A DNA stretch of 64,000 bases from Adhaeribacter soli. GTDB taxonomy: Bacteria > Bacteroidota > Bacteroidia > Cytophagales > Hymenobacteraceae. Positions 46,273-63,615 of this stretch are shown piece after piece (within the stretch, counting starts at the first letter, position 1; each line of letters opens with the position of its first letter). The position numbers were made by a program, and so were the translations under genes. The stretch covers positions 62,001 through 126,000 of the forward strand of contig NZ_VTWT01000006.1 in assembly GCF_008727925.1 (NCBI RefSeq), written 5' to 3'. Under the pieces are notes generated by a model. The model searched no databases. It was not told the DNA's origin and saw only the letters and a program-made list of their open reading frames with translations.

Positions 46273-46345
46273 GATTCCGTAGCTCAGCTGGTAGAGCAAT
46301 ACACTTTTAATGTATGGGTCCTGGGTTCGAATCCCAGCGGGATCA
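46273..46345 (+). tRNA. tRNA-Lys (anticodon TTT)
   Basis: The cloverleaf is complete over 73 bases. The acceptor arms are GATTCCG and CGGGATC (one G-T pair), the D arm is GCTC..GAGC, the anticodon arm carries CTTTTAA, and the T arm is CTGGG-TTCGAAT-CCCAG. No CCA is encoded. It stands exactly at the border between the moderate-GC chromosome and the AT-rich island, as expected of an integration site. Confidence 0.97.
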
Positions 46346-46357
46346 CTTCTTTCAAAC

Positions 46358-49500: not shown

Positions 49501-49663
49501 TTAACTATACATCAGGTCCTTAGCTAGTTAAACTTACAAAGAACCAAAATCTACTAACATAATAAATTCAAATTTTATATCTTGGAACCGCCGAAAGAGT
49601 CATTTTTGGAATTGGGCAATTATTCAAATCAGCCTATAGAAGCTTCGTTTGCACTTAAATCTA

Positions 49664-50140
49664 ATGTTCTCAAGTTCAATTACGGATTTTACCAACTCAG
49701 TAGAGCGATATAAGCTGAGCCTAATGCTATGCAGCCCCGAAAAGCTTGAACAGGTAGTTTCCTTTGTTCAAAGCCGAAATTTTTCTGTAATTAACTTTGG
49801 GCGTGAAGTTTCTCAGTTCATAGCTACTCTCACTAGTAAGAAATATTTGGATATTGAAGTCAATGATTTTATAATAAAACTGCTGGAAGATAGGAAGACC
49901 AAGATAAATGACTCAATTAACGAATTGGTAGTTATATACAATCTAGGAATTTTGTTAGAGCCAAGCCTTGGATTGGATCCTGCCAAATTGCTAAAAGAAT
50001 TTTCCAAAACTTCTTGTCTCGTTATCATATGGGAAAATCAGATAGATAATGATTCTATCTTGCATTGGCCCACTCAGAAAAACAAATATTGCCTGGATTT
50101 TTCAGGCGTTCAGTTAAAAAATTTGCGATATGCAATATAA
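49664..50140 (+). CDS. brxF: BREX-3 protein BrxF, divergent (no intact P-loop seen)
   Basis: A 158-residue protein starting at ATG 49664; an in-frame TTG 15 bases earlier is less likely. Position (first gene, directly before brxC), length and the overall pattern (SVINFGREVSQFIATL, then LGILLEPSLGLDPAKLLKEF, then CLVIIWEN) fit BrxF of BREX type 3. Normal BrxF is a P-loop ATPase-like protein. Here the place of Walker A reads LSLMLCSPEKLEQ, without GxGKT, and the Walker B strand NELVVIYN lacks the Asp. Its stop codon overlaps the brxC start by 11 bases. The role in phage exclusion is unknown. Confidence 0.75.
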   Translation: MFSSSITDFTNSVERYKLSLMLCSPEKLEQVVSFVQSRNFSVINFGREVSQFIATLTSKKYLDIEVNDFIIKLLEDRKTKINDSINELVVIYNLGILLEPSLGLDPAKLLKEFSKTSCLVIIWENQIDNDSILHWPTQKNKYCLDFSGVQLKNLRYAI

Positions 50141-53100
50141 AGAGCTTATTCAATTCGAACCGATCACCTCAGTTGTGAAATTGGTTAAAGCCGATGAAAA
50201 ATCAGTAGCTGAGAATTTAGTAAAGACCTTCGTCTTTTCACAGAAGATGCAGGAAGATCTACAAGAAGTCATTCTTAAAAACTTAACACCTGAGCAATCT
50301 CATGAAACTAAAGGGATTCAGATTGTAGGTAGTTATGGTACTGGTAAATCACACTTAATGTCATTGGTTTCGGCTATAGCTGAAAATGCGGATTTGGTAG
50401 GTTTAATCCAAAACGAGGAACTTAAGAAAGATTTCAGTCCGATTGCTGGAAAATATAAAGTGCTTCGATTTGAGATTGGTACAGACAAACCCCTAAAAGA
50501 TATTGTATTTGCTCAGATTGAAAGATACCTGGATAAACAAGGTATGGCTTTCTCATTCGATGAAGATTCGCTCTATAGTTGGAAAGAACTGATAGAACGT
50601 ATGATGGCTGAGTTTGAAGCTAAATTTCCTGATAAGTACTTCCTTATCGTTATTGACGAGTTACTGGAATATCTAAAAGGCAGAAAACCAAGCGAATTGA
50701 ATAACGACTTGATGCTATTACGTCAATTAGGTGAAGCTTGCGACAATTCTAGATTCAAACTAATGTTTGGCGTTCAGGAGTTGTTGTATCGCTCTCCTGA
50801 GTTTCAGTTCCAGGCAGATATGCTCAATAAGATTGAAGATCGCTATTCTGACTTAATAATTACAAAGGAAGATGTTTCTTACGTTGTAAAAGAACGCCTA
50901 CTAAAGAAAGACATCCATCAAAAAGCTAAGATCAGAGAACATCTTTTAAAATTTGCTCACTTATTCGAAGCCATTAATACTAATCTGAACGAATTTATTG
51001 ATCTGTTCCCGATCCATCCAAATTATGTAAGTTATTTTGAAAAGATAAAGCATGGCAAAAGCCAGCGAGAAATTTTAAAAGTTCTTTCTGTGAAATTCGG
51101 TGATATGTTAGAGGAACATGTTCCTACTGACAATCCTGGTCTTATTACCTATGATACTTATTGGGAAGATCTAGCTAAGAACCCTGCCATGCTTACTATT
51201 CCTGACATTAGGATCGTTAGGGATAAAGTTGAAGTTATTTCAACTCGGATTAATGAACATTTTGTTGGGGCAAGAGCAAACAGAAAAGGAATAGCAGAAA
51301 GTATAGCACACTCCCTAGCTATACGCATTCTATGTGATGATTTAGATAAACGTAACGGTGCGAATGCCCATAGTTTAAAAGAAGATTTATGTCTGACCAT
51401 TCCAGGTATTGAAGAAGCAGAATTCCTTTTAGCTACAATCGAATCCACGGCAAAACAATTAGTTTCTGCCACCTCAGGTCAATATGTTGACATAGATAAT
51501 ATTAGTTCTGATTTTTATATCCGTACTGAAGGCGGAGTAAATATTCCACAGCTTATCAGAGATTATGCCGATGAAGTTATAAAGAAAGATCCAGATCAAG
51601 CTGATCAATACTACTTTGATTTCCTGCAGTTTATACTCGAAATTCAGCAAGATTCTTATCGTACAGGATTTAAGATATGGCAACACTCATTAGAGTGGAT
51701 CGATAAAAAAAGCTTTCGGTTAGGATATATTTTCTTTGGAAATCCCAATGAAAGGAGCACCACTGAACCAATTCAGCAATATTACATTTTCTTTAGTCCG
51801 CTATTTAATCAAATAGATAGGAATGATGGCGCAGATGAAGTGTATTTTGACGTAGCAGGGCTTTCAGATGAATTTAAGGATACAATTTGCTTATATGGGG
51901 CAGCGAAAGCAAAACATGGATCAGCACCTACAAATCAAAAACAGTTATTCAGTAGCCAAATAGAAGAATATCAGAAAAAAGCTATTGCTCTATTTGATAA
52001 AGAGTATGCTGATAAGACTAGGGTAATTCATAATGGCGAAAGCAAACCACTTAAATCTTTCCATCTACCTGGAGAAGGTTCTACCAAGGAAATGGTATTC
52101 CGTGGGGTAGCAGCTAAGGTTTTAAATAAAACCTTTAACGATAAATTCCCTGATTACCCTGCTTTCACGGATTTGCTTCAGCCTTTGAGCAAAGACAATT
52201 TTGATGGGCGAATAAATGCCGCCTTAAAAAAGATAACATCACCTGGCCAATCAAATAGGGATGGTGAAGCCATACTAAGCGGATTAGGTTTATGGAGTGG
52301 TCAGACCATTGCTGTACAAAACAGTAAGTATGCTGATAGTATCCTGAAAAAATTAAAGGAGGCAGGGGAAAGTGCTGTATTGAATAGAGCTGATATTTTG
52401 TATCCACATTATGCTACGGCTAATTTGTGGTACTCGATAGATTTTAATATTGATTACCAATTAGAATTTATTGTGCTTGCTGTACTGGCTTATAAAGGCG
52501 ATATCGAAATAAGTTGGACAGGAAATAAAACAATATCGGCTACTAATATTGAATCAATCTTAACGCTTAATAATGTTGATTACTTTACATTTCAGCATAT
52601 AAAAACGCCCCAAGGGATCCCAGTAAAGAACTTAAAGGCTTTATTTGCTAGCTTAGATCTGCCTGATTTTACTTCTGAATTAGAAAAGCCTGATACCATA
52701 AGTAAAATTATTACTCAAGCAAAAACTAAGGCAGAAACAGTTGTAAGAACCAGAGCTACCATAGTTCAAGGGCTAAAATGTAGAAATGTTAATCTTTTAT
52801 CTGAAGAAGAAAGCCAAAGGATGAAAAATGATCTGGAAGGTTTAGCAGCCATGCTCGATACCATTCAATCATATAACACTTATGGGAAATTAAAGGCATT
52901 TAAACTTTCTGAAGAACAATTAATAAATACATTTCAGGCTTACGCTTATTGTAATAGAGTAGATAAATTAAAAAACAAGGCCGAAAAATTTGAAAAGTTA
53001 GTTGGATACCTACATACCGCACAATCCTATGTAGTTCAAGAAGAAAAACCACTTTTCGAAGATATTAAAGCAGCTATAGAAAAGCTTCCAACGGTTTTAT

Positions 53101-53795
53101 CATCAGATCAGGATGCTGAAATCAAGCAGTATGAAGCCTTACTAAATTCCTTGATCGATAGATACGCTGAGTATTATTTAAGTCAATATACAAAGTGCCG
53201 TTTATCGAAATCGGATGCTTTGGCTAAAGACAGGATACTTACTAGTGAAAATAAAAGGATTTGCGATATCATCAAGGAATCGGATTTTATAACTACAACC
53301 GAATATCAAAATTGGATTAATAGTATTACTTCATTAAGAGAAGCGGACATTTCATTAACGAAGTCAAAAGTAAAAGAAGAACCTTACCATGACTTTAACC
53401 CCCGTGAATACTATGGCAAGGTAACTTTTTCTATTAATCAATTAGAAGAGCAGCTAAATGGGATATTAGAAAAGTGGACCACTGCTATGCGTTCTGTCTT
53501 TAAAGATCCAACTGTTCAGGAGAATATGGAAATTTTAAAAGTTGATGATAGAAGTATAGTTGAAGATTTTAGAACCGAAAAAATTGATTTAACTCCTGAA
53601 AATGCAGTAAGATTAAGGAATTTAATTACTCAGCTTACCCAAGATATTGACAAGGTTGAAATAACTATTGACTCTTTGCGAATTCAACTTAATAAACCTT
53701 TAACGCCAACAGAAGCAATTGAAACTCTTACTGCCTATATTGATACGCTTTGTGCAGGGAAAGAAAGAAATAAAGTAAGATTAATATTGAAATAG
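50130..53795 (+). CDS. brxC: BREX protein BrxC (PglY-like ATPase)
   Basis: A 1221-residue protein, the usual size of BrxC. Walker A is GSYGTGKS at residues 67-74, and Walker B is FLIVIDELLEYL with Asp176-Glu177, so the ATPase site is intact, in contrast to BrxF. The long C-terminal half is helical and probably coiled-coil (TSLREADISLTKSKV and neighbours). BrxC is a core BREX component of the AAA+ type. It is cotranscribed with brxF by overlap and followed after three bases by the extra small nuclease-like gene. Confidence 0.93.
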   Translation: MQYKELIQFEPITSVVKLVKADEKSVAENLVKTFVFSQKMQEDLQEVILKNLTPEQSHETKGIQIVGSYGTGKSHLMSLVSAIAENADLVGLIQNEELKKDFSPIAGKYKVLRFEIGTDKPLKDIVFAQIERYLDKQGMAFSFDEDSLYSWKELIERMMAEFEAKFPDKYFLIVIDELLEYLKGRKPSELNNDLMLLRQLGEACDNSRFKLMFGVQELLYRSPEFQFQADMLNKIEDRYSDLIITKEDVSYVVKERLLKKDIHQKAKIREHLLKFAHLFEAINTNLNEFIDLFPIHPNYVSYFEKIKHGKSQREILKVLSVKFGDMLEEHVPTDNPGLITYDTYWEDLAKNPAMLTIPDIRIVRDKVEVISTRINEHFVGARANRKGIAESIAHSLAIRILCDDLDKRNGANAHSLKEDLCLTIPGIEEAEFLLATIESTAKQLVSATSGQYVDIDNISSDFYIRTEGGVNIPQLIRDYADEVIKKDPDQADQYYFDFLQFILEIQQDSYRTGFKIWQHSLEWIDKKSFRLGYIFFGNPNERSTTEPIQQYYIFFSPLFNQIDRNDGADEVYFDVAGLSDEFKDTICLYGAAKAKHGSAPTNQKQLFSSQIEEYQKKAIALFDKEYADKTRVIHNGESKPLKSFHLPGEGSTKEMVFRGVAAKVLNKTFNDKFPDYPAFTDLLQPLSKDNFDGRINAALKKITSPGQSNRDGEAILSGLGLWSGQTIAVQNSKYADSILKKLKEAGESAVLNRADILYPHYATANLWYSIDFNIDYQLEFIVLAVLAYKGDIEISWTGNKTISATNIESILTLNNVDYFTFQHIKTPQGIPVKNLKALFASLDLPDFTSELEKPDTISKIITQAKTKAETVVRTRATIVQGLKCRNVNLLSEEESQRMKNDLEGLAAMLDTIQSYNTYGKLKAFKLSEEQLINTFQAYAYCNRVDKLKNKAEKFEKLVGYLHTAQSYVVQEEKPLFEDIKAAIEKLPTVLSSDQDAEIKQYEALLNSLIDRYAEYYLSQYTKCRLSKSDALAKDRILTSENKRICDIIKESDFITTTEYQNWINSITSLREADISLTKSKVKEEPYHDFNPREYYGKVTFSINQLEEQLNGILEKWTTAMRSVFKDPTVQENMEILKVDDRSIVEDFRTEKIDLTPENAVRLRNLITQLTQDIDKVEITIDSLRIQLNKPLTPTEAIETLTAYIDTLCAGKERNKVRLILK

Positions 53796-53798
53796 ACT

Positions 53799-54218
53799 AT
53801 GGCTGACACAAATATGGCCTCCGAATTTTATGTGCTTTCTACTTTACATAGGCTTGGTAAAAATGCTTTATTAACATTAGGTAATAAAAAAGCAGTTGAT
53901 ATTCTAGTAGAAGTAGAAGGCAGGGCTTTAACTATTGATGTTAAAGGTATTAGAGATACAACATCTTTTCCCATAGACAATCTAGATTTAGAATTGCCAA
54001 ATCATTTTGTAGTTTTTGTATCCTTTATAGGACAAATTGGAAATCCATTGGTACTACCTGAGATTCACGTGGTACCTACCAATGAGCTTTCTATCCTAAG
54101 GCCTGAATTAAACGGTAACTCATTGATTTATACAAGCCCTGGCGGATTATTAAGAGTCCAATTAGGCAGATTAAGATCGGTTGGTATTTTTCAAAACGCT
54201 TGGCAACTAATTAACTAA
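53799..54218 (+). CDS. PD-(D/E)XK nuclease-like protein inserted in the BREX operon
   Basis: A 139-residue protein. An N-terminal helix with Glu9 (MASEFYVLSTLHRLG), then GNKKAVDILV with Asp34, then TIDVKG with Asp47-x-Lys49, reproduce the E...D...(D/E)XK active site of the restriction-endonuclease/Hjc resolvase fold. The spacing is close to archaeal Hjc. The rest (residues 60-139) shows a mixed alpha/beta core. It lies 3 bases after brxC and 8 bases before pglXI on the same strand, so it is part of the operon, although the standard six-gene BREX-3 set lacks it. Its target could be phage DNA or a BREX intermediate. Catalysis is unproven. Confidence 0.75.
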   Translation: MADTNMASEFYVLSTLHRLGKNALLTLGNKKAVDILVEVEGRALTIDVKGIRDTTSFPIDNLDLELPNHFVVFVSFIGQIGNPLVLPEIHVVPTNELSILRPELNGNSLIYTSPGGLLRVQLGRLRSVGIFQNAWQLIN

Positions 54219-54226
54219 AAGAAATA

Positions 54227-56854
54227 ATGACTAAGGATAAAATATTGTGTTTAGGAAAAGAATTTACTACTGAAGAAGAGCGAAGAGCATTTTTTCGTAG
54301 TGAATTACGAGCAAAACTTCCAGATTTAAAAAGTATAGACGGGTTCCCTTTTGGTGAGGATGAAGATATTATTGAATTAAGCGATCCACCTTATTATACA
54401 GCGTGTCCAAATCCTTGGTTGAATGATTTTGTTTTTAATTGGGAAACTAAAAAAGCAGTTCTTTCAAATAGAATGGACAATTTTCTAGTTAGTGAGCCAT
54501 ATTCTGGTGATGTAAATGAAGGAAAAAATAATCCAATTTATAATGCGCATGGTTATCATACAAAAGTCCCACATCCTGCTGTAATGCGATATATTTTGCA
54601 TTACACGCAACCTGGGGATATTGTGCTTGATGGTTTTGCAGGGACTGGAATGGCAGGAGTTGCTGCGCAACTTTGCGCTTTTCCCGATCCTGAAACACAT
54701 TATAGAATTGAGAATGAATTCAAAGATTTAGGTTTAAAGCCTCCTGTTTGGGGTACTCGAAATGCAATTCTTAGTGACCTTTCCCCAATTGCTTCTTTTA
54801 TTGCTTATAACTATAATACCCCGAAGGAAGCTGACTCCTTTAAAAAGGAAACTCAAAAATTAATGGCAGAGCTTGAAGCTGAATGCGGATGGATGTATGA
54901 AACTTTTCATACCAATGCCATAAAAGGAAGAATAAACTATACGATATGGAGTAGTGTTTTTTCATGCCCGCAATGTAGTGGCGAGATAGTTTTTTGGGAA
55001 ACAGCAATAGATAAAGATAAAGGGGCTGTACTGGATGAGTTCCTTTGTCCACATTGTGGAGCAACTCAATCTAAACGTCAGCTGGACAAAGCTTGGGTAA
55101 CTATTTTTGACAGTGCAATTAACCAATCAATACGACAGGCGAAAATTGTTCCTGTTTTAATAAATTATACTGTATCTGGTAAAAGATTTGAAAAAGTACC
55201 TGACGAAAATGATATTGCTCTTATCAGAAAAATAGAAGAATTAGAAATTCCTTTTTGGTTTCCTAAAGATAGAATGCCAGAAGGTGATGAAGCACGAAGA
55301 AATGATCGAGATGGAATTACTCATTTGCATCATTTTTACACCAAGAGGAATAATTATGTGATAGCTTCTATTTGGGAAAAAGCTTCTAAAATACCACATT
55401 TTCGATGGGCTATTTCAGGGATTATTCAACGAGCAAATAAACAACATCAAATTGCTGTTAGTAGAGTTGGGGGGGAAAAAGCAAATGCGGGTGGAAAGAC
55501 AGCAGGTCATAGACGAGGAACTCTGTACATTCCTTCAATCCAGGTTGAATTTAGTGTCTTTGAACTAATTTATGAGAGACTTAAGATTATTCAAAAAGCT
55601 TTGTTAAAGCGTAGTACCCCTGTAGCTATTTCTACCCAATCCTCAACTAAACTGCAGTTAAAAGATGAAAGTGTTGATTATATATTCGTTGACCCGCCAT
55701 TTGGTGCCAATATTATGTATTCTGAACTTAATTTTTTATGGGAAGGGTGGTTAAAAGTGAAGACAAATAATAAAAAGGAGGCAATTGAAAATAGGTTTCA
55801 AGGCAAATCGCTTTTTGAATACCAGTTTTTAATTGAAAGCTGCTTTCACGAATTTTATCGTGTGCTAAGGCCTGGGAAATGGATGACTGTAGAATTTAGT
55901 AATACAAGTGCCTCTGTTTGGAATAGTATACAGAATGCCTTACAGCGTGTAGGCTTTATTGTTTCAAATGTATCATTTCTAAATAAAAAGCAAGAAACTC
56001 ATAGTGCTCGAACAAGTTCAACAGCTGTTAAGCAAGATTTAGTTATAAGCTGTTACAAGCCTTCAAAAGATTTTGTAGATAAAATTGAATCATCTGGATC
56101 GGAAGTGATCGTTTGGGATTTTATTTCTGAACATTTGCAACATCTCCCAGTGCATTCTAAAAGAGAAAAAAGTACAACTGCAATTATTGAAAGGAGTCCA
56201 AAAATCCTTTATGATAGGTTAATTACTTTTTATTTGATGAGAGGCTTGCCAATTCCTATTAACGCTAAGGAATTTCAGGATGGATTAAAGCAAAGGTTTG
56301 CTACTAGAGATGATATGTTTTTCACTTCTGTACAGGCAGCTGAATATGATGAAAAGAAAGCACTTGCTCCAAATTTCGTTCAGTTAGCACTAATTATAGG
56401 TAATGAATCCGATGCCATTGAATGGTTAAAGAGCAGGCTTCGTTCTAAGCCTCAGAAATATAATGATATAATGCCTGATTTTCGGATTGCCACACAATCG
56501 CTACGCAAAGGTGATACACTTCCAGAGTTACAAGAAATTCTAAATGAAAATTTCATTCAAGAAACTGATGGTAGTTGGCGAACTCCTGATCCAAGTGAAG
56601 CAAAGGATAGAGAGATATTGCGGACTAAGGTTTTGTTAAAAGAATTTAACGAATACATTGCTATCATTAAACAACCTAAAGCGAAAAAGCTAAAGGAGGT
56701 TAGAGTTGAATCCCTAAGGACAGGATTTAAAAACTGCTGGGATAATAAAGACTTTAAAACAATTTTAGAATTAGGTGATATGATACCTCAAAACATCTTG
56801 CTAGAAGATGAAAAATTATTGATGTATTATGATATCGCTAAAGATAGAGTTTAG
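54227..56854 (+). CDS. pglXI: BREX-3 adenine-specific DNA methyltransferase PglXI
   Basis: An 875-residue gamma/beta-type N6-adenine methyltransferase. SAM motif I is VLDGFAGTGMAG (Asp135 to Gly141), and the catalytic motif is VDPPFG (Asp489-Phe492). Between them, residues about 247-275 carry a zinc ribbon (CPQC and CPHCG). The C-terminal 200 residues are probably for target recognition or partner binding. In BREX the methyltransferase marks the host's own sites so that only unmarked phage DNA is blocked. Both catalytic motifs are intact. Confidence 0.9.
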   Translation: MTKDKILCLGKEFTTEEERRAFFRSELRAKLPDLKSIDGFPFGEDEDIIELSDPPYYTACPNPWLNDFVFNWETKKAVLSNRMDNFLVSEPYSGDVNEGKNNPIYNAHGYHTKVPHPAVMRYILHYTQPGDIVLDGFAGTGMAGVAAQLCAFPDPETHYRIENEFKDLGLKPPVWGTRNAILSDLSPIASFIAYNYNTPKEADSFKKETQKLMAELEAECGWMYETFHTNAIKGRINYTIWSSVFSCPQCSGEIVFWETAIDKDKGAVLDEFLCPHCGATQSKRQLDKAWVTIFDSAINQSIRQAKIVPVLINYTVSGKRFEKVPDENDIALIRKIEELEIPFWFPKDRMPEGDEARRNDRDGITHLHHFYTKRNNYVIASIWEKASKIPHFRWAISGIIQRANKQHQIAVSRVGGEKANAGGKTAGHRRGTLYIPSIQVEFSVFELIYERLKIIQKALLKRSTPVAISTQSSTKLQLKDESVDYIFVDPPFGANIMYSELNFLWEGWLKVKTNNKKEAIENRFQGKSLFEYQFLIESCFHEFYRVLRPGKWMTVEFSNTSASVWNSIQNALQRVGFIVSNVSFLNKKQETHSARTSSTAVKQDLVISCYKPSKDFVDKIESSGSEVIVWDFISEHLQHLPVHSKREKSTTAIIERSPKILYDRLITFYLMRGLPIPINAKEFQDGLKQRFATRDDMFFTSVQAAEYDEKKALAPNFVQLALIIGNESDAIEWLKSRLRSKPQKYNDIMPDFRIATQSLRKGDTLPELQEILNENFIQETDGSWRTPDPSEAKDREILRTKVLLKEFNEYIAIIKQPKAKKLKEVRVESLRTGFKNCWDNKDFKTILELGDMIPQNILLEDEKLLMYYDIAKDRV

Positions 56855-56913
56855 TCCATTTTATTTATGAGAGCAGACGTAATTGCTGACAGGGCGAAGA
56901 ATTACTGGAAATT

Positions 56914-59715
56914 ATGATTTACCAAGGAAAGGAGATTGAAGTTTTATCAAAGAAATCAGTTTTCGGTAAGTTAATTTCCGAAATAAAGATTTTATCAACT
57001 GGTGAAATTAAATCAGTTCCAGATTCAGAAATATCTGATGAAAAGAAACTCCCAACAGAAGCGGAGATCACATTCAAGGCGATAGCGGCTAAGATTAAAA
57101 GTGAGATATATAAACAAGGAATGATTGCTCCAATTGAAAGCAATATTATTCCTTTGCCCCATCAGATCTTGGCTTTAGAAAAAGTTATGTCAGGCCAATT
57201 TCTTCGCTTCCTTATAGCAGATGAAGTTGGTATGGGCAAAACGATTGAAACTGGATTGGTTTTAAAAGAACTTAAGCTTCGTGGAATTGTTAAGCGCACT
57301 TTAATAATAGTTCCAAAGTCAGCAATGGGCCAATGGCAACAGGAGATGAAGAAACACTTCAATGAGCTGTTCCATATTTACGACACTGATTACATCAATA
57401 CAGTTAGCCGTGCATTTGCACGTATTGAAGCAGATAACGAGATCAATCTTTTTGCTCAACACAACCAGATCATTGTATCAATGGATGCCCTTAAACCTTT
57501 GGAAACTCGACAGGGCTGGAGTAAACAGAAGGTAGATGAATATAATCGCTTTAGAATTCAAAATGTTCTGGAAGCTGATTTCGACCTCCTAGTAATTGAT
57601 GAATGCCATAAGGTTGGCGGTAGCACTACTCAGGTTGGTCGTTTCCAGATGGCTGATGTGTTGTGTAACGCAATTCCTAATGTTTTACTACTTTCTGCAA
57701 CTCCCCACCGAGGGAAAAGTGATCACTTTAGAAGAATTCTGCAGCTTCTTAACGCAGATGCTTTTGCAGGTGAAGGAATGCCATCTATCCCTGAATTAGA
57801 ACCATATGTAATTAGAACTGAGAAACGGCAAGCAATCGACTATAATGGTAATGCTCTGTTTAATAAAAGACATACCCAAAAGATTGAAGTAATTTATGAT
57901 CCAGTAAAACATAAGAAACAACAAAAGCTTTACGAGGCTGTCACAGAATATGTAGTAACTGGATTCAATCTTGCTCAACAAACTAAAAATACATCGTATG
58001 GATTTGTAATGCTACTTTTCCAGCGTATGATGAGTAGTTCCACTCAATCCATTTTGGATGCTATGCAGCGGAGAGCTGAAAGGCTTTCAGGTGAACGGCA
58101 AGAAGTAAATAAGGAAAATATTATTAACAACCTGGATGGGTATGGCTTCGAGGGGCAGTTGGAAATGGATTTTGAGCAAAAGATTTTTTCCTTAGTTGAA
58201 GAAGCTCAAGCGAATTACGACACAGAGTTAAACATATTGCAAGGTTTAATTCGGGATGCAAAGGATTGCTTAGACACTGAAACTGATGCCAAAGTAGATT
58301 TCTTATTTAATAAACTCACAGAATTAAAAAGAAAAGAACAAAACCCCGATCTAAAGTTTCTGATTTTTACTGAGTTTACTAGTACCCAATTTATGCTCAA
58401 AACTCTATTAGAACAGAAAGGTGGATATCTATGTGAAGCCATTAATGGTTCTATGGATTTTGATCAACGTGTTAATGCTCTGAAGAATTTCAAAGATGGT
58501 GCACAAATTTTGATTTGTACTGATGCGGCAGGCGAGTCTTTAAATATGCAGTTTGCACATGTGGTAGTTAACTTCGATATGCCTTGGAATCCGATGGTTT
58601 TAGAGCAAAGGATAGGTCGGGTTGATCGAATCGGGCAAAAACACGAAGTGCTGGCATTAAATATGATGCTTGATAATTCGGTTGATAAGCGTGTATATGA
58701 AGTGATTGAAACCAAGCTTTCTCAGATTATGAATGAACTTGGTATTGATAAAACTTCAGATGTTTTAGATAGCACTCTGGAAAGGGAACAAATAAGTCGC
58801 TTATACCTAACATCTTTATTGAATCCGTCAAAATTTGATCAAGAAAGCAAAAATTGGTTAGATGAAATTAAGAATAAACTTAAAGAGTATAAAAGCACTG
58901 AAGGAGCACTACCTACCTTAGCATCGAAAGATATTAAAGCTGAAAAGGTAGAAGCAATTAAACATAGTCCGCTTCCAAATTGGTTAGAATTCTTAACTAA
59001 AAACTATCTTAAAACGAAAGGTATAGCCTATCAGAATGTATTGGACGGAATCAAATTTAAGCTTCCTGGATATAAGGAGAATATTTACACTTTCAATATT
59101 AAAGAGAGTGTAAACAACCCCATACCAGAGCCCATCTCTTTTCAGCACGAAATTATTCAGAACATTTTAAAGGATGCAATACCATTTACCGAATCTCAGC
59201 AAATTCCCATTATAAAAATTAGGCAAGGTAGTTCATCTCCAGGTCAATGGTCATTATGGCATCTCGAGGTTAAAAACCAGTTTGAAACCATTCAAATCAT
59301 ACAACCTATTTTTATCTCATTAGATGGGGAAAGGTTCTCTGCATTTGCTCAGAATGTGTGGGATAAAATGATTCAAGAAAATGATTATTTAGAATGTTTA
59401 GGAGTAATGTCAGCAGATGAATCCAAAACATTGCTTAACCAGGTATCATTAAAAGCAGAAGAACTTTTACAGCCAAAATTCGAAGAATTCGAACAAGCTA
59501 TAATTCATAATACTGCCACGATTAACCTTAATAAAGAAAAGTCATTTACTTTTCAGGAACAGCAAATTAATAGGATAGGTATTGAAAATATCAGACAAGC
59601 AAGGCTGAATCGACTACTCAAAGAAAAGGAACTCTGGGATTCTACTTTCGAGTCAGCAAAACAAGTTGTTCCTTCGCTTACATGTTTGTTAGTATTAAAT
59701 GTTACAAATGAGTAA
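56914..59715 (+). CDS. brxHII: BREX-3 SNF2-type helicase BrxHII
   Basis: A 933-residue superfamily 2 helicase or translocase. Motif I is DEVGMGKT (residues 103-110), motif II is DECH (229-232), and motif VI is QRIGRVDRIGQ near residue 565, the SNF2/RapA pattern. The C-terminal 330 residues are not assigned. It is the usual helicase of BREX type 3. A purine-rich GGAAATT stretch precedes its start, 59 bases after pglXI. It overlaps the pglZ start. Confidence 0.9.
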   Translation: MIYQGKEIEVLSKKSVFGKLISEIKILSTGEIKSVPDSEISDEKKLPTEAEITFKAIAAKIKSEIYKQGMIAPIESNIIPLPHQILALEKVMSGQFLRFLIADEVGMGKTIETGLVLKELKLRGIVKRTLIIVPKSAMGQWQQEMKKHFNELFHIYDTDYINTVSRAFARIEADNEINLFAQHNQIIVSMDALKPLETRQGWSKQKVDEYNRFRIQNVLEADFDLLVIDECHKVGGSTTQVGRFQMADVLCNAIPNVLLLSATPHRGKSDHFRRILQLLNADAFAGEGMPSIPELEPYVIRTEKRQAIDYNGNALFNKRHTQKIEVIYDPVKHKKQQKLYEAVTEYVVTGFNLAQQTKNTSYGFVMLLFQRMMSSSTQSILDAMQRRAERLSGERQEVNKENIINNLDGYGFEGQLEMDFEQKIFSLVEEAQANYDTELNILQGLIRDAKDCLDTETDAKVDFLFNKLTELKRKEQNPDLKFLIFTEFTSTQFMLKTLLEQKGGYLCEAINGSMDFDQRVNALKNFKDGAQILICTDAAGESLNMQFAHVVVNFDMPWNPMVLEQRIGRVDRIGQKHEVLALNMMLDNSVDKRVYEVIETKLSQIMNELGIDKTSDVLDSTLEREQISRLYLTSLLNPSKFDQESKNWLDEIKNKLKEYKSTEGALPTLASKDIKAEKVEAIKHSPLPNWLEFLTKNYLKTKGIAYQNVLDGIKFKLPGYKENIYTFNIKESVNNPIPEPISFQHEIIQNILKDAIPFTESQQIPIIKIRQGSSSPGQWSLWHLEVKNQFETIQIIQPIFISLDGERFSAFAQNVWDKMIQENDYLECLGVMSADESKTLLNQVSLKAEELLQPKFEEFEQAIIHNTATINLNKEKSFTFQEQQINRIGIENIRQARLNRLLKEKELWDSTFESAKQVVPSLTCLLVLNVTNE

Positions 59716-61546
59716 CTGGATTGACAAATTTAAGAAGCTTGTTATTCCAAGCCATAAGAAGCATATCTTAATTGCTGATATTGATAACTTATTTGAATAC
59801 GAAGAACTAGGCCATGCCTTTGAAAGTGATGGTTATACGATTCAAATTGCTAAAACTGATCTTGAAGGCCGCTTGCAATTTGAATTGTTTAATCGTGATA
59901 CTGAAAAACTTTTGCTTGTAGTTCCTGTATCCTATTACCCATTACCTGATATCGAGATGCAAGTTCATTATCAGGCTATAGGTTTGTACCAGTTATTCCC
60001 AAATTTAGATTCAAAGGCAATTAAGGGGCTCAGCTACAATGCCCTCTGTCTATTGTCTAAAATTAAGGTATATGAAAAATTAGGGTATGAGAAAACGGTA
60101 CATTTTTTATTAGAGAACCTATATAATATTGATTTTAGTACCTTAATCTCGGGGAACGCTAAAGAAAAGGTATTAAATGCGCTAATATCTGTAATGCTAG
60201 AAAAGAATGGGGTTAACCTCCAACTGAAGCAATTCTTATCTGATTTTGCAAAACCATACTTCCCTTCTTTGGTTGAAAAAAGCCTAAATAAAGCAAATCT
60301 GATTGATTTTATTCAAGAACAATGGGATGGCTTTGTAAATTATGGAGATTCAATCCTTAATTTTAAAGATTCAACACTTACAAAAAGCATTGGATTTTTA
60401 TTTGCATTTGGATATTTACAGCCAATAAAAGTAACAGATGAAAGGTATGAAGACTTCTACAGACCTTTCAAGATCGGCCTTTATGTGGATAATCAAGAAT
60501 CTAATGATAATGAGCTAGTTGGATTGATAGAGTATCTTGGCCAGGAGGTTGAAGTAATTGAAGATGTCGCTGATCAATGGTTTAATATCATTCAAGTTCT
60601 TAGTAAAGCAAAGCTAAAGTATCTTCAAACAAATAATTTCCAGTTAAAAGATAATTACTCGCAAATTGAAGACCAGGTCAATGAAAGATTTCAACGGTTT
60701 ATAGAAAATACTTACAATAGCCAATTTTCCTTAACTGGAATTAGAAAGCCAATTGTAGTATCTAGAATTTTAGAACATTTAAAAGCATCTCCTACGAAAA
60801 GAAAAGCCCTGATTGTTATTGATGGGATGAATTATTGGCAATGGAGTCTTTTAGGATGCGCATTATCTAGTATTGGGCTTGAATTTTCACCAAATGCCTC
60901 CTTAGCCTTTATACCTACTATTACTGCCTGGTCACGCCAAGCTATTTTTAAAGGAGACAAACCAGATCTTGAAGCCGATAATTCAAAAGAGAAATCATTA
61001 TTTTACGATTTCTGGATGAAAAATGGCTTATCATCTTATCAAATAGATTTTAAAAGAATTGGCGTAAATGATCCTTTTGATATAAGCAGTATCGCTGAGG
61101 ATATCAAAATACTTGGTATGGTTTGCAATGATTTGGATAATATCATGCATGGTGCAGTTTTGGGCGATGACCAATTGAAAGCATCAACAATTCAATGGAT
61201 AGAAAAGTCTAAAATAGTTGATATTATCTCAGAGCTGAAAAGAAAAGGTTTTCACGTTTTCATAACTTCTGACCATGGTAATATTGAAGCATATGGATTA
61301 AAGAATCTTACCTTAAAAGAAAAAGTAGGGGCATTAGGTAGGAGCAAAAGGCATTTATATTTTACGAACGAAATCTTATTGAATAATTTTGTTGAGCAGA
61401 ATGCAAATGTCACTATTGGTAAAAAAGGGCTATCGCTCTATTTAAAGAATAAAGAAGCATTCACCACTGAAAATAATAAAGTAATAACTCATGGTGGCTC
61501 CCATATATGGGAAGTGATCGTACCTTTTATAAGTATTGATGAATAA
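59708..61546 (+). CDS. pglZ: BREX-3 phosphatase-like protein PglZ
   Basis: A 612-residue protein starting at the ATG of ATGAGTAA, which overlaps the brxHII stop; an ATG nine bases earlier is possible. The alkaline-phosphatase-like PglZ domain is visible: DGMNYWQW with Asp372, then PTITAWSRQ with the nucleophile-like Thr, and TSDHGN with Asp522-His523. PglZ is the defining BREX component and is essential for defence; its substrate is not known. The N-terminus (MSNWIDKFKKLV, then HILIADIDNLFEYEE) is as in BREX-3 PglZ. Confidence 0.92.
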   Translation: MSNWIDKFKKLVIPSHKKHILIADIDNLFEYEELGHAFESDGYTIQIAKTDLEGRLQFELFNRDTEKLLLVVPVSYYPLPDIEMQVHYQAIGLYQLFPNLDSKAIKGLSYNALCLLSKIKVYEKLGYEKTVHFLLENLYNIDFSTLISGNAKEKVLNALISVMLEKNGVNLQLKQFLSDFAKPYFPSLVEKSLNKANLIDFIQEQWDGFVNYGDSILNFKDSTLTKSIGFLFAFGYLQPIKVTDERYEDFYRPFKIGLYVDNQESNDNELVGLIEYLGQEVEVIEDVADQWFNIIQVLSKAKLKYLQTNNFQLKDNYSQIEDQVNERFQRFIENTYNSQFSLTGIRKPIVVSRILEHLKASPTKRKALIVIDGMNYWQWSLLGCALSSIGLEFSPNASLAFIPTITAWSRQAIFKGDKPDLEADNSKEKSLFYDFWMKNGLSSYQIDFKRIGVNDPFDISSIAEDIKILGMVCNDLDNIMHGAVLGDDQLKASTIQWIEKSKIVDIISELKRKGFHVFITSDHGNIEAYGLKNLTLKEKVGALGRSKRHLYFTNEILLNNFVEQNANVTIGKKGLSLYLKNKEAFTTENNKVITHGGSHIWEVIVPFISIDE

Positions 61547-62246
61547 TAAGGGGAAATATATTGGTTTAAACCAACGGATTCCATTTGAAGTATTGGATTT
61601 AGCAATCCAGAATTATTTGGATAGTGATGTTGTCGATAAAAGTAAGATACTTCAACATATGCTAATCTTTACATCAGGAGTAAATCGGGCAAATAAGGCT
61701 TCAAATTATGTAGTACAAATCTTGAGTCGCCAAGAAAGTTTATTGAAAAAAATTAAAAAATCACTTAAACAATCAACTTTTGAATCCCTTAGTAACGCTG
61801 ATAGAAAAGCACTTTCCTTAAGCCTTATTAGCCTAACTTACCCAATTACTTATGATCTTTTGGTAGCCCTAGCTCAAGGATTTAAGGTTCAAACCCAAAT
61901 AAACAAGAAATTCATAAATGAGAAGGTAATGGCAATTTATGGTAGTAACAGAACGGTTGATATTGCAATTGATGCCCTACTTCCTATGCTTATTGAATTG
62001 TCTACCATTAAAAGGGATAAAGTAAGTATCTATTCCTTGGCAAACAGATTGGCTATAACAAATAAGTTTATCCAGGAATTAATCATCTATACTGATATTA
62101 AATTATCTAGTACAAAGTCAATTTTAGTTGATGATTTAGGATACAGGCCATGGTTTACCTACTTTGACCTCCCTCAAACTAACAACTATCAATATCTGGT
62201 TTCGAAAAAGGATAGTGCAGTTGGTAGAGGTTATTTAACATTATAA
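61539..62246 (+). CDS. brxA: BREX protein BrxA (DUF1819-like)
   Basis: A 235-residue, mostly helical basic protein starting at the ATG of ATGAATAA, which overlaps the pglZ stop by eight bases. A TTG three bases earlier is not needed. The last position after pglZ and the helical, small-protein character (NRANKASNYVVQILSRQ, then SNADRKALSLSLISLTYP) match BrxA of BREX type 3. BrxA is a small DNA-binding-type protein in other systems. Assignment rests more on context than on motifs. Confidence 0.75.
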   Translation: MNNKGKYIGLNQRIPFEVLDLAIQNYLDSDVVDKSKILQHMLIFTSGVNRANKASNYVVQILSRQESLLKKIKKSLKQSTFESLSNADRKALSLSLISLTYPITYDLLVALAQGFKVQTQINKKFINEKVMAIYGSNRTVDIAIDALLPMLIELSTIKRDKVSIYSLANRLAITNKFIQELIIYTDIKLSSTKSILVDDLGYRPWFTYFDLPQTNNYQYLVSKKDSAVGRGYLTL

Positions 62247-62535: not shown

Positions 62536-63615
62536 CTATATTAGTCTAATTGTTTTGATTTCTAATATCCTTCCATCAATCTTAAATTTAAAACTAGTTG
62601 ATGTGTTTTCAATAATCTCTGAGTTACCATAATGTAATTGACTATGATGATTAGCACAGACAGTGATTAAGTTATTAATGCTTAAAACACCTTTCTTTAA
62701 TGTTGATATAGGTTCAACATGGTGGGTTTCAATATATGGATTACCATTAGGCTTTTTGAAAGAAAATGGAGGTAATCCCATCGCTTCACATATCAAACAT
62801 TTATAACCTGCAAGCTTTTTAACTTTATTAGCTATTGCCCCACGTTCAATATAGTTAGAAATTCGTGTTTTTACATTGGGAGTTTGTTTGTTCATTAACT
62901 TCTCCAACTCTGTTATTCCATCTACCGTATCAGCGGTACTATCTCCCACTACCTGATAAAAATCCTGTAATTCAAATACTTCATTTGAAGTTTGGACTAA
63001 TAAAGGGAATTTCTGAACAAATAATTTAAGCTTTTTATTGGTAGGGTTTAATTGAAGTGCTTTGATAACCAAATTGTGGACATTATCAGAATTTAGATAA
63101 TTAAACCCTTGCTGGGAAATTAACTTGTCAGTTGGAAGAAAGGCTTCCTTTTTAACAATATCATTATCTATAACAATTGGTTTTTCAAAATAAATAATAT
63201 CTTCAGGTAAAGCCTGAATATTACCGCTGTCGTATTTCTTATATATGGAATGATCAGCTGTTCTTTCGAACCAATCACCAAAATAAGGAAATCCATAAAA
63301 GCCGACTATTGACTTCCTGTTACCATTAGCGTAATCGCTACTTAAAAGAAAAATAATTTCAACATGTTTTGATTTTTCTATATCAGGTGGTCTATTCAAC
63401 ATTGGGGTATATCCAATAAAATAACCATTAGCTTCAGCTGGGTATATTTCATGTCCAAAGTTTAAGCTCTCATGCATATAGGATTTATCTTTAACATACC
63501 CATACTTAGATGCTTTTAAATCCTGGATTGTTGGTTCATTAGCCCATTTGTTGCTATTCCACGACATTGAGGCAAGAATACCATAGTTTTCTATAATTGG
63601 GTTATCAGTTTTCAT
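62536..63615 (-). CDS. HNH endonuclease with long N-terminal region
   Basis: A 359-residue protein. The C-terminal part carries an HNH motif: CLIC near residue 276, then THHVEPIS, NLITVCANHHSQLH and a final metal-binding His pair. The N-terminal 240 residues (with GYFIGYTP, IIFLLSSDY, KSIVGFYGFPYFGDW) have a beta-rich character that may be a DNA-modification reader of the EVE/PUA kind, as in modification-dependent type IV enzymes. That reading is uncertain. It is oriented toward the BREX operon and lies 26 bases after a deiminase gene. It probably cuts foreign DNA. Confidence 0.75.
   Translation of the reverse strand: MKTDNPIIENYGILASMSWNSNKWANEPTIQDLKASKYGYVKDKSYMHESLNFGHEIYPAEANGYFIGYTPMLNRPPDIEKSKHVEIIFLLSSDYANGNRKSIVGFYGFPYFGDWFERTADHSIYKKYDSGNIQALPEDIIYFEKPIVIDNDIVKKEAFLPTDKLISQQGFNYLNSDNVHNLVIKALQLNPTNKKLKLFVQKFPLLVQTSNEVFELQDFYQVVGDSTADTVDGITELEKLMNKQTPNVKTRISNYIERGAIANKVKKLAGYKCLICEAMGLPPFSFKKPNGNPYIETHHVEPISTLKKGVLSINNLITVCANHHSQLHYGNSEIIENTSTSFKFKIDGRILEIKTIRLI

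Follow-up and report, generated by a model that had tools for sequence, protein, structure and literature searches.

The 64,000-nucleotide stretch of the Adhaeribacter soli genome analysed here (contig NZ_VTWT01000006.1, positions 62,001 to 126,000; the window) carries one complete bacteriophage exclusion (BREX) type 3 operon, ordered brxF-brxC-[139 aa]-pglXI-brxH-pglZ-brxA, in which a gene for a 139-residue nuclease-like protein stands between brxC and pglXI (Table 1). PADLOC recognised all six BREX proteins (E-values: BrxF, 4e-13; BrxC, 2e-287; PglXI, 0; BrxH, 1e-259; PglZ, 6e-65; BrxA, 3e-13), and the combination of BrxF, a DUF6079 BrxC, PglXI, an Snf2 helicase, a type 3 PglZ and BrxA in one operon assigns it to BREX type 3. 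In NCBIfam, PglZ scores 292 with BREX_PglZ_3 (cut-off 250) and BrxF 47.7 with BREX_3_BrxF, slightly below the cut-off of 50. The BrxC is divergent, reaching 895 bits in a DUF6079/PF19557 search against ~1800 for the commoner full-length copies in the phylum Bacteroidota. Under motif names that we take to apply to these residue strings, BrxC keeps its Walker A and DE motifs and PglXI its DPPF and DGFAGTG; in BrxH, motif I (DEVGMGKT), DECH and motif VI are present, as is DHGN in PglZ. The lack of a Walker motif in BrxF is normal, since BrxF belongs with the inactive STAND NTPases (PMC12839542, cited throughout from the part of its text available to us). Open reading frames, PADLOC and NCBIfam bear out the operon, gene order and coordinates given in an earlier note on this DNA.

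The 139-aa gene begins (ATG, 53799) 3 bp after the brxC stop (53795), and its own stop (54218) lies 8 bp before the pglXI ATG (54227), a spacing that had already been read as placing it in the operon; it is probably co-transcribed with BREX. Its GC content of 34.5% falls within the operon range of 32-36%. The open reading frame is a real gene and more than a chance one, because 17 homologues from other species align with its product at 31-53% identity, mostly near full length, with the consensus N-x-N-L-A-x-E, L-T-L-G-N-K-K-A-V-D-I and T-x-D-V-K. Across 29 aligned proteins (the window protein included; the broken copies of the nuclease gene found in loci L013 and L077 excluded), Glu9, Asp34, Lys49 and Trp135 are invariant, and position 47 carries D 15 times, Q 10 times, E three times and S once. 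As Glu9, Asp34 and Lys49 are kept in all 29, the protein is likely to be an active nuclease. Inactive restriction endonuclease domains are known in defence proteins, for example BrxHII (PMC12839542), and the 139-aa protein might likewise be a catalytically dead PD-(D/E)XK domain serving DNA binding or regulation; set against the invariant E9, D34 and K49, and a D, E or Q at position 47 in 28 of the 29 proteins, this reading earns scarcely any credence.

An AlphaFold model of the protein, built on an 18-row alignment (A1; pLDDT 92.1, pTM 0.88), has the common core fold of the PD-(D/E)XK superfamily together with its conserved acidic/Lys active site. Foldseek matched the model to I-Ssp6803I (E 3.6e-4), Hjc (4.7e-3) and RecU (2e-2). 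With VIA-align the best match was again I-Ssp6803I (2ost; Z 11.7, root-mean-square deviation (rmsd) 2.8, 114 residues aligned), followed by Archaeoglobus fulgidus Hjc (Z 10.1, rmsd 2.8, 109 aligned), the N-terminal domain of Eco15I (Z 9.7, rmsd 2.9, 110 aligned) and SPARDA (Z 9.4, rmsd 3.0, 112 aligned); RecU (Z 8.2-8.6), DpnI, PvuII and EcoRV were also among the structural matches. As far as the predicted model goes, the protein has a PD-(D/E)XK fold of the I-Ssp6803I/Hjc structural group; both the active-site pattern proposed earlier from the letters and its fold hold up. A library of viral structures gave one match under E 0.001 (an unnamed protein, 6e-4), the lower-ranked named matches including PD(D/E)XK endonucleases and RecU amid many uncharacterised proteins.

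Searches of Pfam, PADLOC and NCBIfam with the window protein returned nothing above noise (PHROGs was not searched), and no PDB entry matched it by sequence. In Pfam, this includes Hjc (PF01870) and PDDEXK_5 (PF11645), the latter presumably covering I-Ssp6803I. A profile search of the PDB reached RecU at no better than E 0.2-0.4, and the 18 A1 proteins gave only weak Pfam matches, with NOV_C in three (best E 0.0035), Hjc in one (E 0.042), PDDEXK_5 in one (E 0.15) and others of like kind. Judged by its sequence, the protein is assignable to no family. The analysis flags a small PD-(D/E)XK family whose member in the window is missed by Pfam, NCBIfam and PADLOC, and some of whose members adjoin defence systems.

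Table 1 Features of the BREX-carrying region, in window coordinates.
Feature	Position	Strand	Remark
tRNA-Lys	46273..46346	+	17-bp 3' end is the left attachment repeat of the BREX-carrying island
brxF	49664..50140	+	inactive-STAND type; alternative TTG start at 49649
brxC	50130..53795	+	DUF6079 AAA+ ATPase, divergent subclade
139-aa PD-(D/E)XK nuclease-like cargo gene	53799..54218	+	Glu9, Asp34, Asp47-x-Lys49
pglXI	54227..56854	+	adenine DNA methyltransferase
brxH	56914..59715	+	Swi2/Snf2 helicase; BrxHII by domain content, best PADLOC model described as BrxHI
pglZ	59699..61546	+	BREX-3 type
brxA	61536..62246	+	PADLOC
HNH protein, McrA-like C-terminus (type IV-like)	62536..63615	-	convergent neighbour, outside the BREX operon

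None of the 20 other BREX-3 loci in which the brxC-pglXI slot could be resolved holds the 139-aa gene, which is thus not a conserved BREX-3 component; the same slot is filled in 14 of them, with four unrelated kinds of content (Schlafen in eight, YhcG in three, AAA_21 in two and a trio with a helix-turn-helix (HTH) gene in one), and is empty in six. In the phylum sample, Schlafen AlbA_2 genes follow brxC in L023, L027, L029 and L036, with a remnant in L033; a YhcG/DUF1016 PD-(D/E)XK gene occupies the slot of L024-L026, an AAA_21 ATPase that of L028 and L038, and three small genes including an HTH that of L053, while pglXI directly follows brxC in L030 and L031. On plasmids, pglXI directly follows brxC in L070, L071 and L073 (pglXI truncated), and Schlafen genes fill the slot in L072 and L074. 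For L023, L027-L029, L036 and L038, where pglXI lies beyond the fetched flank, the next gene behind brxC is taken as the slot content. The assignment of L025, L026 and L038 follows from their being nearly identical to L024 and L028, and the L033 remnant was assigned by eye. The count leaves aside weak PF19557 matches covering part of the model, which were not taken as BREX-3 BrxC (L041-L052 and lower rows), loci whose sequence ends before the slot (L032, L034, L035, L039, L040), G502:C61, G459:C154 and plasmid H2, as well as L075 (an unresolved stretch of ~1.5 kb) and L096 (rearranged gene order).

The two closest BREX-3 loci found, retrieved by a BrxC search of 395 class genomes, are those of genomes G653 (L094) and G834 (L095). 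L094 is 80% identical to the window in BrxC (tblastn) and 80% in BrxH, and L095 74% in BrxC (tblastn), 77% in BrxH, 65% in PglZ and 68% in BrxA. The L095 slot is empty, with 6 bp between the brxC stop and the pglXI ATG, and that of L094 contains a gene for a 580-aa Schlafen/HATPase (SLFN_AlbA_2) protein and one for a 194-aa protein, followed by two pglXI copies. Slot content has thus been exchanged between close BREX-3 relatives, and this exchange together with the empty site indicates that the 139-aa gene is exchangeable and not required for the persistence of a BREX-3 operon. A whole-genome profile search of the L094 and L095 genomes, run without its own positive control, found no homologue; the A1 profile does recover the window's own copy in the class sample, presumably in the same draw. 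The same search covered 12 genomes that have a DUF6079 BrxC and drew a blank in all 12.

These observations bear on the earlier proposal that the gene encodes a built-in subunit of the BREX-3 core. Its 3- and 8-bp spacing within the operon suits a core gene, but the survey for a homologue at the same place found none among the loci reached, including the two nearest relatives found, the 12 DUF6079 BrxC genomes are without a match, and the empty site had already weakened the idea; we consider a core subunit very improbable. What stands of the earlier account is the fold, the active site and the place in the operon, and what lacks support is the built-in subunit. In three closely related operons one and the same slot is occupied by a nuclease gene, occupied by a Schlafen-type gene or left empty, a natural comparison in which it can be tested whether slot genes are independent effectors, BREX partners or passengers.

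Several of these loci show further features. The two tandem pglXI genes of L094 (4603-9899) are ~61% and 57% identical to that of the window and perhaps provide two methylation specificities. In L095 (12102-12740), a small gene between pglXI and brxH, together with an EF-Tu domain-3-like segment that shares the reading frame of brxH, possibly marks a second cargo slot. The three small slot genes of L053 (8628-9992) resemble, by eye, a toxin-antitoxin-like set with a third partner, a single HTH_3 being recognised among them. In the Klebsiella plasmid L073 (9769-14793) the BREX-3 operon is interrupted, pglXI matching over its first 139 residues only before arsenic-resistance genes follow.

Beyond BREX, a scan by sequence pattern, taking one genome per species, turned up 17 homologous loci spread over many phyla; tblastn detected a BREX core gene in none of them, though on one side several of these contigs run out after 1-5 kb. 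Homologues occur in 4 of 148 near relatives, 12 of 395 phylum genomes and 13 of 395 class genomes, the window genome being counted each time. Surroundings were examined at 42 loci besides the window (G269, G542, G797 and a second G859 match were left out). Restriction or defence families are represented at 12 of these by an adjoining gene or by one at most ~2.5 kb away, namely type I restriction-modification (RM) in L010, L013, L054 and L055, type IIG in L077 and L079, an Snf2 helicase after a PLD-like gene in L080, Mrr-type in L002 and L011, Septu PtuB in L076, Old in L081 and a D12 methyltransferase in L007. Three more have a nuclease family nearby (YhcG, L056; ERCC4, L016; PDDEXK_4, L084). 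The remaining 27 had no such match or were not scanned, individually scanned neighbours having been picked by eye; those of L014, L082, L083 and L015 gave no restriction or defence match, and L003 and L078 sub-threshold matches only. The nuclease family is accordingly widespread, often solitary and sometimes found in defence operons. Homologues also adjoin ADP-ribosylglycohydrolase genes in L014 (10432-12276; Pfam) and L080 (9734-10516; by eye).

A phage or plasmid origin of the gene was considered and rejected, the window protein having no match in phages or plasmids, nor, with A1 as query, in viral contigs. The L080 homologue as query gave weak matches in eight phage records and five plasmids, and the L076 and L008 homologues in two plasmids and one, respectively. 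Four of the five plasmid places were viewed, and only that of Qipengyuania was notable, for a GIY-YIG nuclease and a gene annotated as a DNA methyltransferase in its vicinity.

This broad and often solitary distribution, with a fold near Hjc and RecU and catalytic residues that we take to have the order and spacing of those of Hjc, would suit a nuclease of recombination or repair that acts on Holliday junctions or branches and processes intermediates on behalf of the host, of the island or of BREX. However, I-Ssp6803I, Eco15I, DpnI, PvuII and EcoRV, which are not resolvases, match as well, Pfam Hjc is reached by just one of the 18 homologues at E 0.042, and presence in 13 of 395 class genomes is not that of a housekeeping repair enzyme, all of which makes this reading quite improbable. 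The same solitary occurrence in ordinary surroundings (by eye, for example, L097 beside serS and ribosomal-protein genes) can be explained by a passenger or selfish gene for a homing-like endonuclease, free-standing, which came to rest in the operon and plays no part in BREX. The best structural match is indeed a homing endonuclease, and the insertion site is clean, with an empty counterpart in L095. Yet the surroundings of homologues vary between loci with no shared target site seen, Rfam at its gathering threshold detects no group I intron in the 46-64 kb part of the window, and a site-specific selfish gene would leave the repeated filling of the slot by unrelated defence-type genes unexplained. 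We regard the passenger as unlikely, although it is the main rival to an auxiliary role.

On balance, and with some reserve, we favour an auxiliary role for the 139-aa gene, which would have been exchanged horizontally and would occupy the brxC-pglXI cargo slot without being part of the BREX core; its product, by conserved residues and modelled fold, is probably an active PD-(D/E)XK DNase. The protein would cut DNA, and its assembly would probably be a dimer or tetramer. Hjc assembles as a dimer. I-Ssp6803I is a tetramer in the available part of PMC12205087. The target could be nicked, unwound or branched DNA exposed as BREX, through the BrxH helicase and PglZ, engages phage DNA; alternatively, the protein could be a backup that takes over as effector if BREX is inhibited. 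This action on BREX-opened phage DNA, or the backup role, is the least certain step. 

Two observations weigh against an auxiliary role in defence. With the gene in none of the 20 other slots, its coupling to BREX rests on placement in a single locus. All eight loci newly fetched from the evenly drawn class sample lacked a tblastn hit (E 1e-6) to any of 13 restriction/defence probes or of the six BREX core proteins, and the family is therefore not dedicated to defence. In a PADLOC comparison of 79 nearest-neighbour genes (42 loci) with 55 genes at least 5 kb away, the near set hit 219 families and the far set 43, numbers that count families and not positive genes, with restriction families in both; among the matches listed, at most two genes per family were near and three far, and the far set also takes in members of those RM operons that the near set samples, hsdM of L013 being one. 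In a wider version of the auxiliary reading, proteins of the GNKKAVDI/DVK family would be plug-in nucleases of general use, taken up separately by unrelated restriction systems (BREX-3, type I, type IIG, Snf2/PLD, Mrr and Septu) because each of these generates the DNA state on which the nuclease acts; this is speculative and would seem doubtful.

The operon as a whole most likely lies on an integrated 34.4-kb tRNA-Lys island, given its low GC, a 17-bp tRNA-Lys repeat and a recombinase-like gene at the far end. GC content drops from ~49% to ~35% at the tRNA-Lys and is back at ~47% after about 35 kb. A copy of the final 17 bp of the tRNA (46330-46346) lies 34,388 bp downstream (L106:16719-16735, ~80,720 in window numbering), on the same contig beyond the window, where it adjoins a gene with the residues HSLRR and a late Tyr, which we take to be the tyrosine-recombinase motif. 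Beside the recombinase, in L106:11076-14817, a gene that looks helicase-like by eye stands in a row with genes for a DarT1-like ADP-ribosyltransferase (PDB 8baq, E 4e-15) and for an ADP-ribosylglycohydrolase; the island may thus carry a second defence module. The HNH protein that converges on brxA has a McrA-like C-terminus (6ghc, E 4e-6; PADLOC mREase_IV, 2e-7) and is a possible type IV partner of BREX.

That standalone PD-(D/E)XK nucleases are embedded in BREX loci is already published as a general phenomenon (PMC12839542, 2026). In the part of that paper available to us, PD-(D/E)XK, HNH, OLD/TOPRIM, HEPN and Schlafen nucleases are reported in or beside BREX core loci across types, with Schlafen, OLD/TOPRIM and standalone PD-(D/E)XK genes as auxiliary or backup effectors, and PglZ is treated as a nuclease with evidence cited; these embedded effectors and the PglZ evidence date the premise of the earlier note that BREX acts without visible DNA cleavage. 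As in those systems, a standalone PD-(D/E)XK gene lies amid the BREX core genes of the window, and Schlafen and OLD/TOPRIM are kinds also seen in the brxC-pglXI slot. A small I-Ssp6803I/Hjc-like family is not named in the available text, which mentions neither I-Ssp nor homing and brings up Hjc a single time, in connection with BrxHII; nor does that text show an exchange between empty and filled states of one BREX slot, and the literature search listings yielded neither the family nor such an exchange; the available part of the PADLOC paper (PMC8565338) and one further literature listing held nothing on genes in BREX slots.

Among characterised nucleases, I-Ssp6803I is the best fold match and of similar size. 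Its catalytic residues, which we take to be Glu11, Asp36, Gln49 and Lys51, have the same spacing as in the 139-aa protein, but the two are 18% identical, and here no group I intron was found and no shared insertion target seen. Archaeal Hjc shares the PD-(D/E)XK fold over 109 residues (Z 10.1) at 14% identity, whereas the window protein has neither a Pfam Hjc match nor any sign of a junction-specific role. The SPARDA nuclease DREN, with active site D41, Q60 and K62, was likened to I-Ssp6803I in the available part of PMC12205087 and has the same fold (Z 9.4), but is a domain of an Argonaute-linked protein, unlike the free 139-aa protein. YhcG/DUF1016 belongs to another family, with two domains and ~380 aa, yet it fills the same brxC-pglXI slot in L024-L026 and adjoins a homologue of the 139-aa gene in L056.

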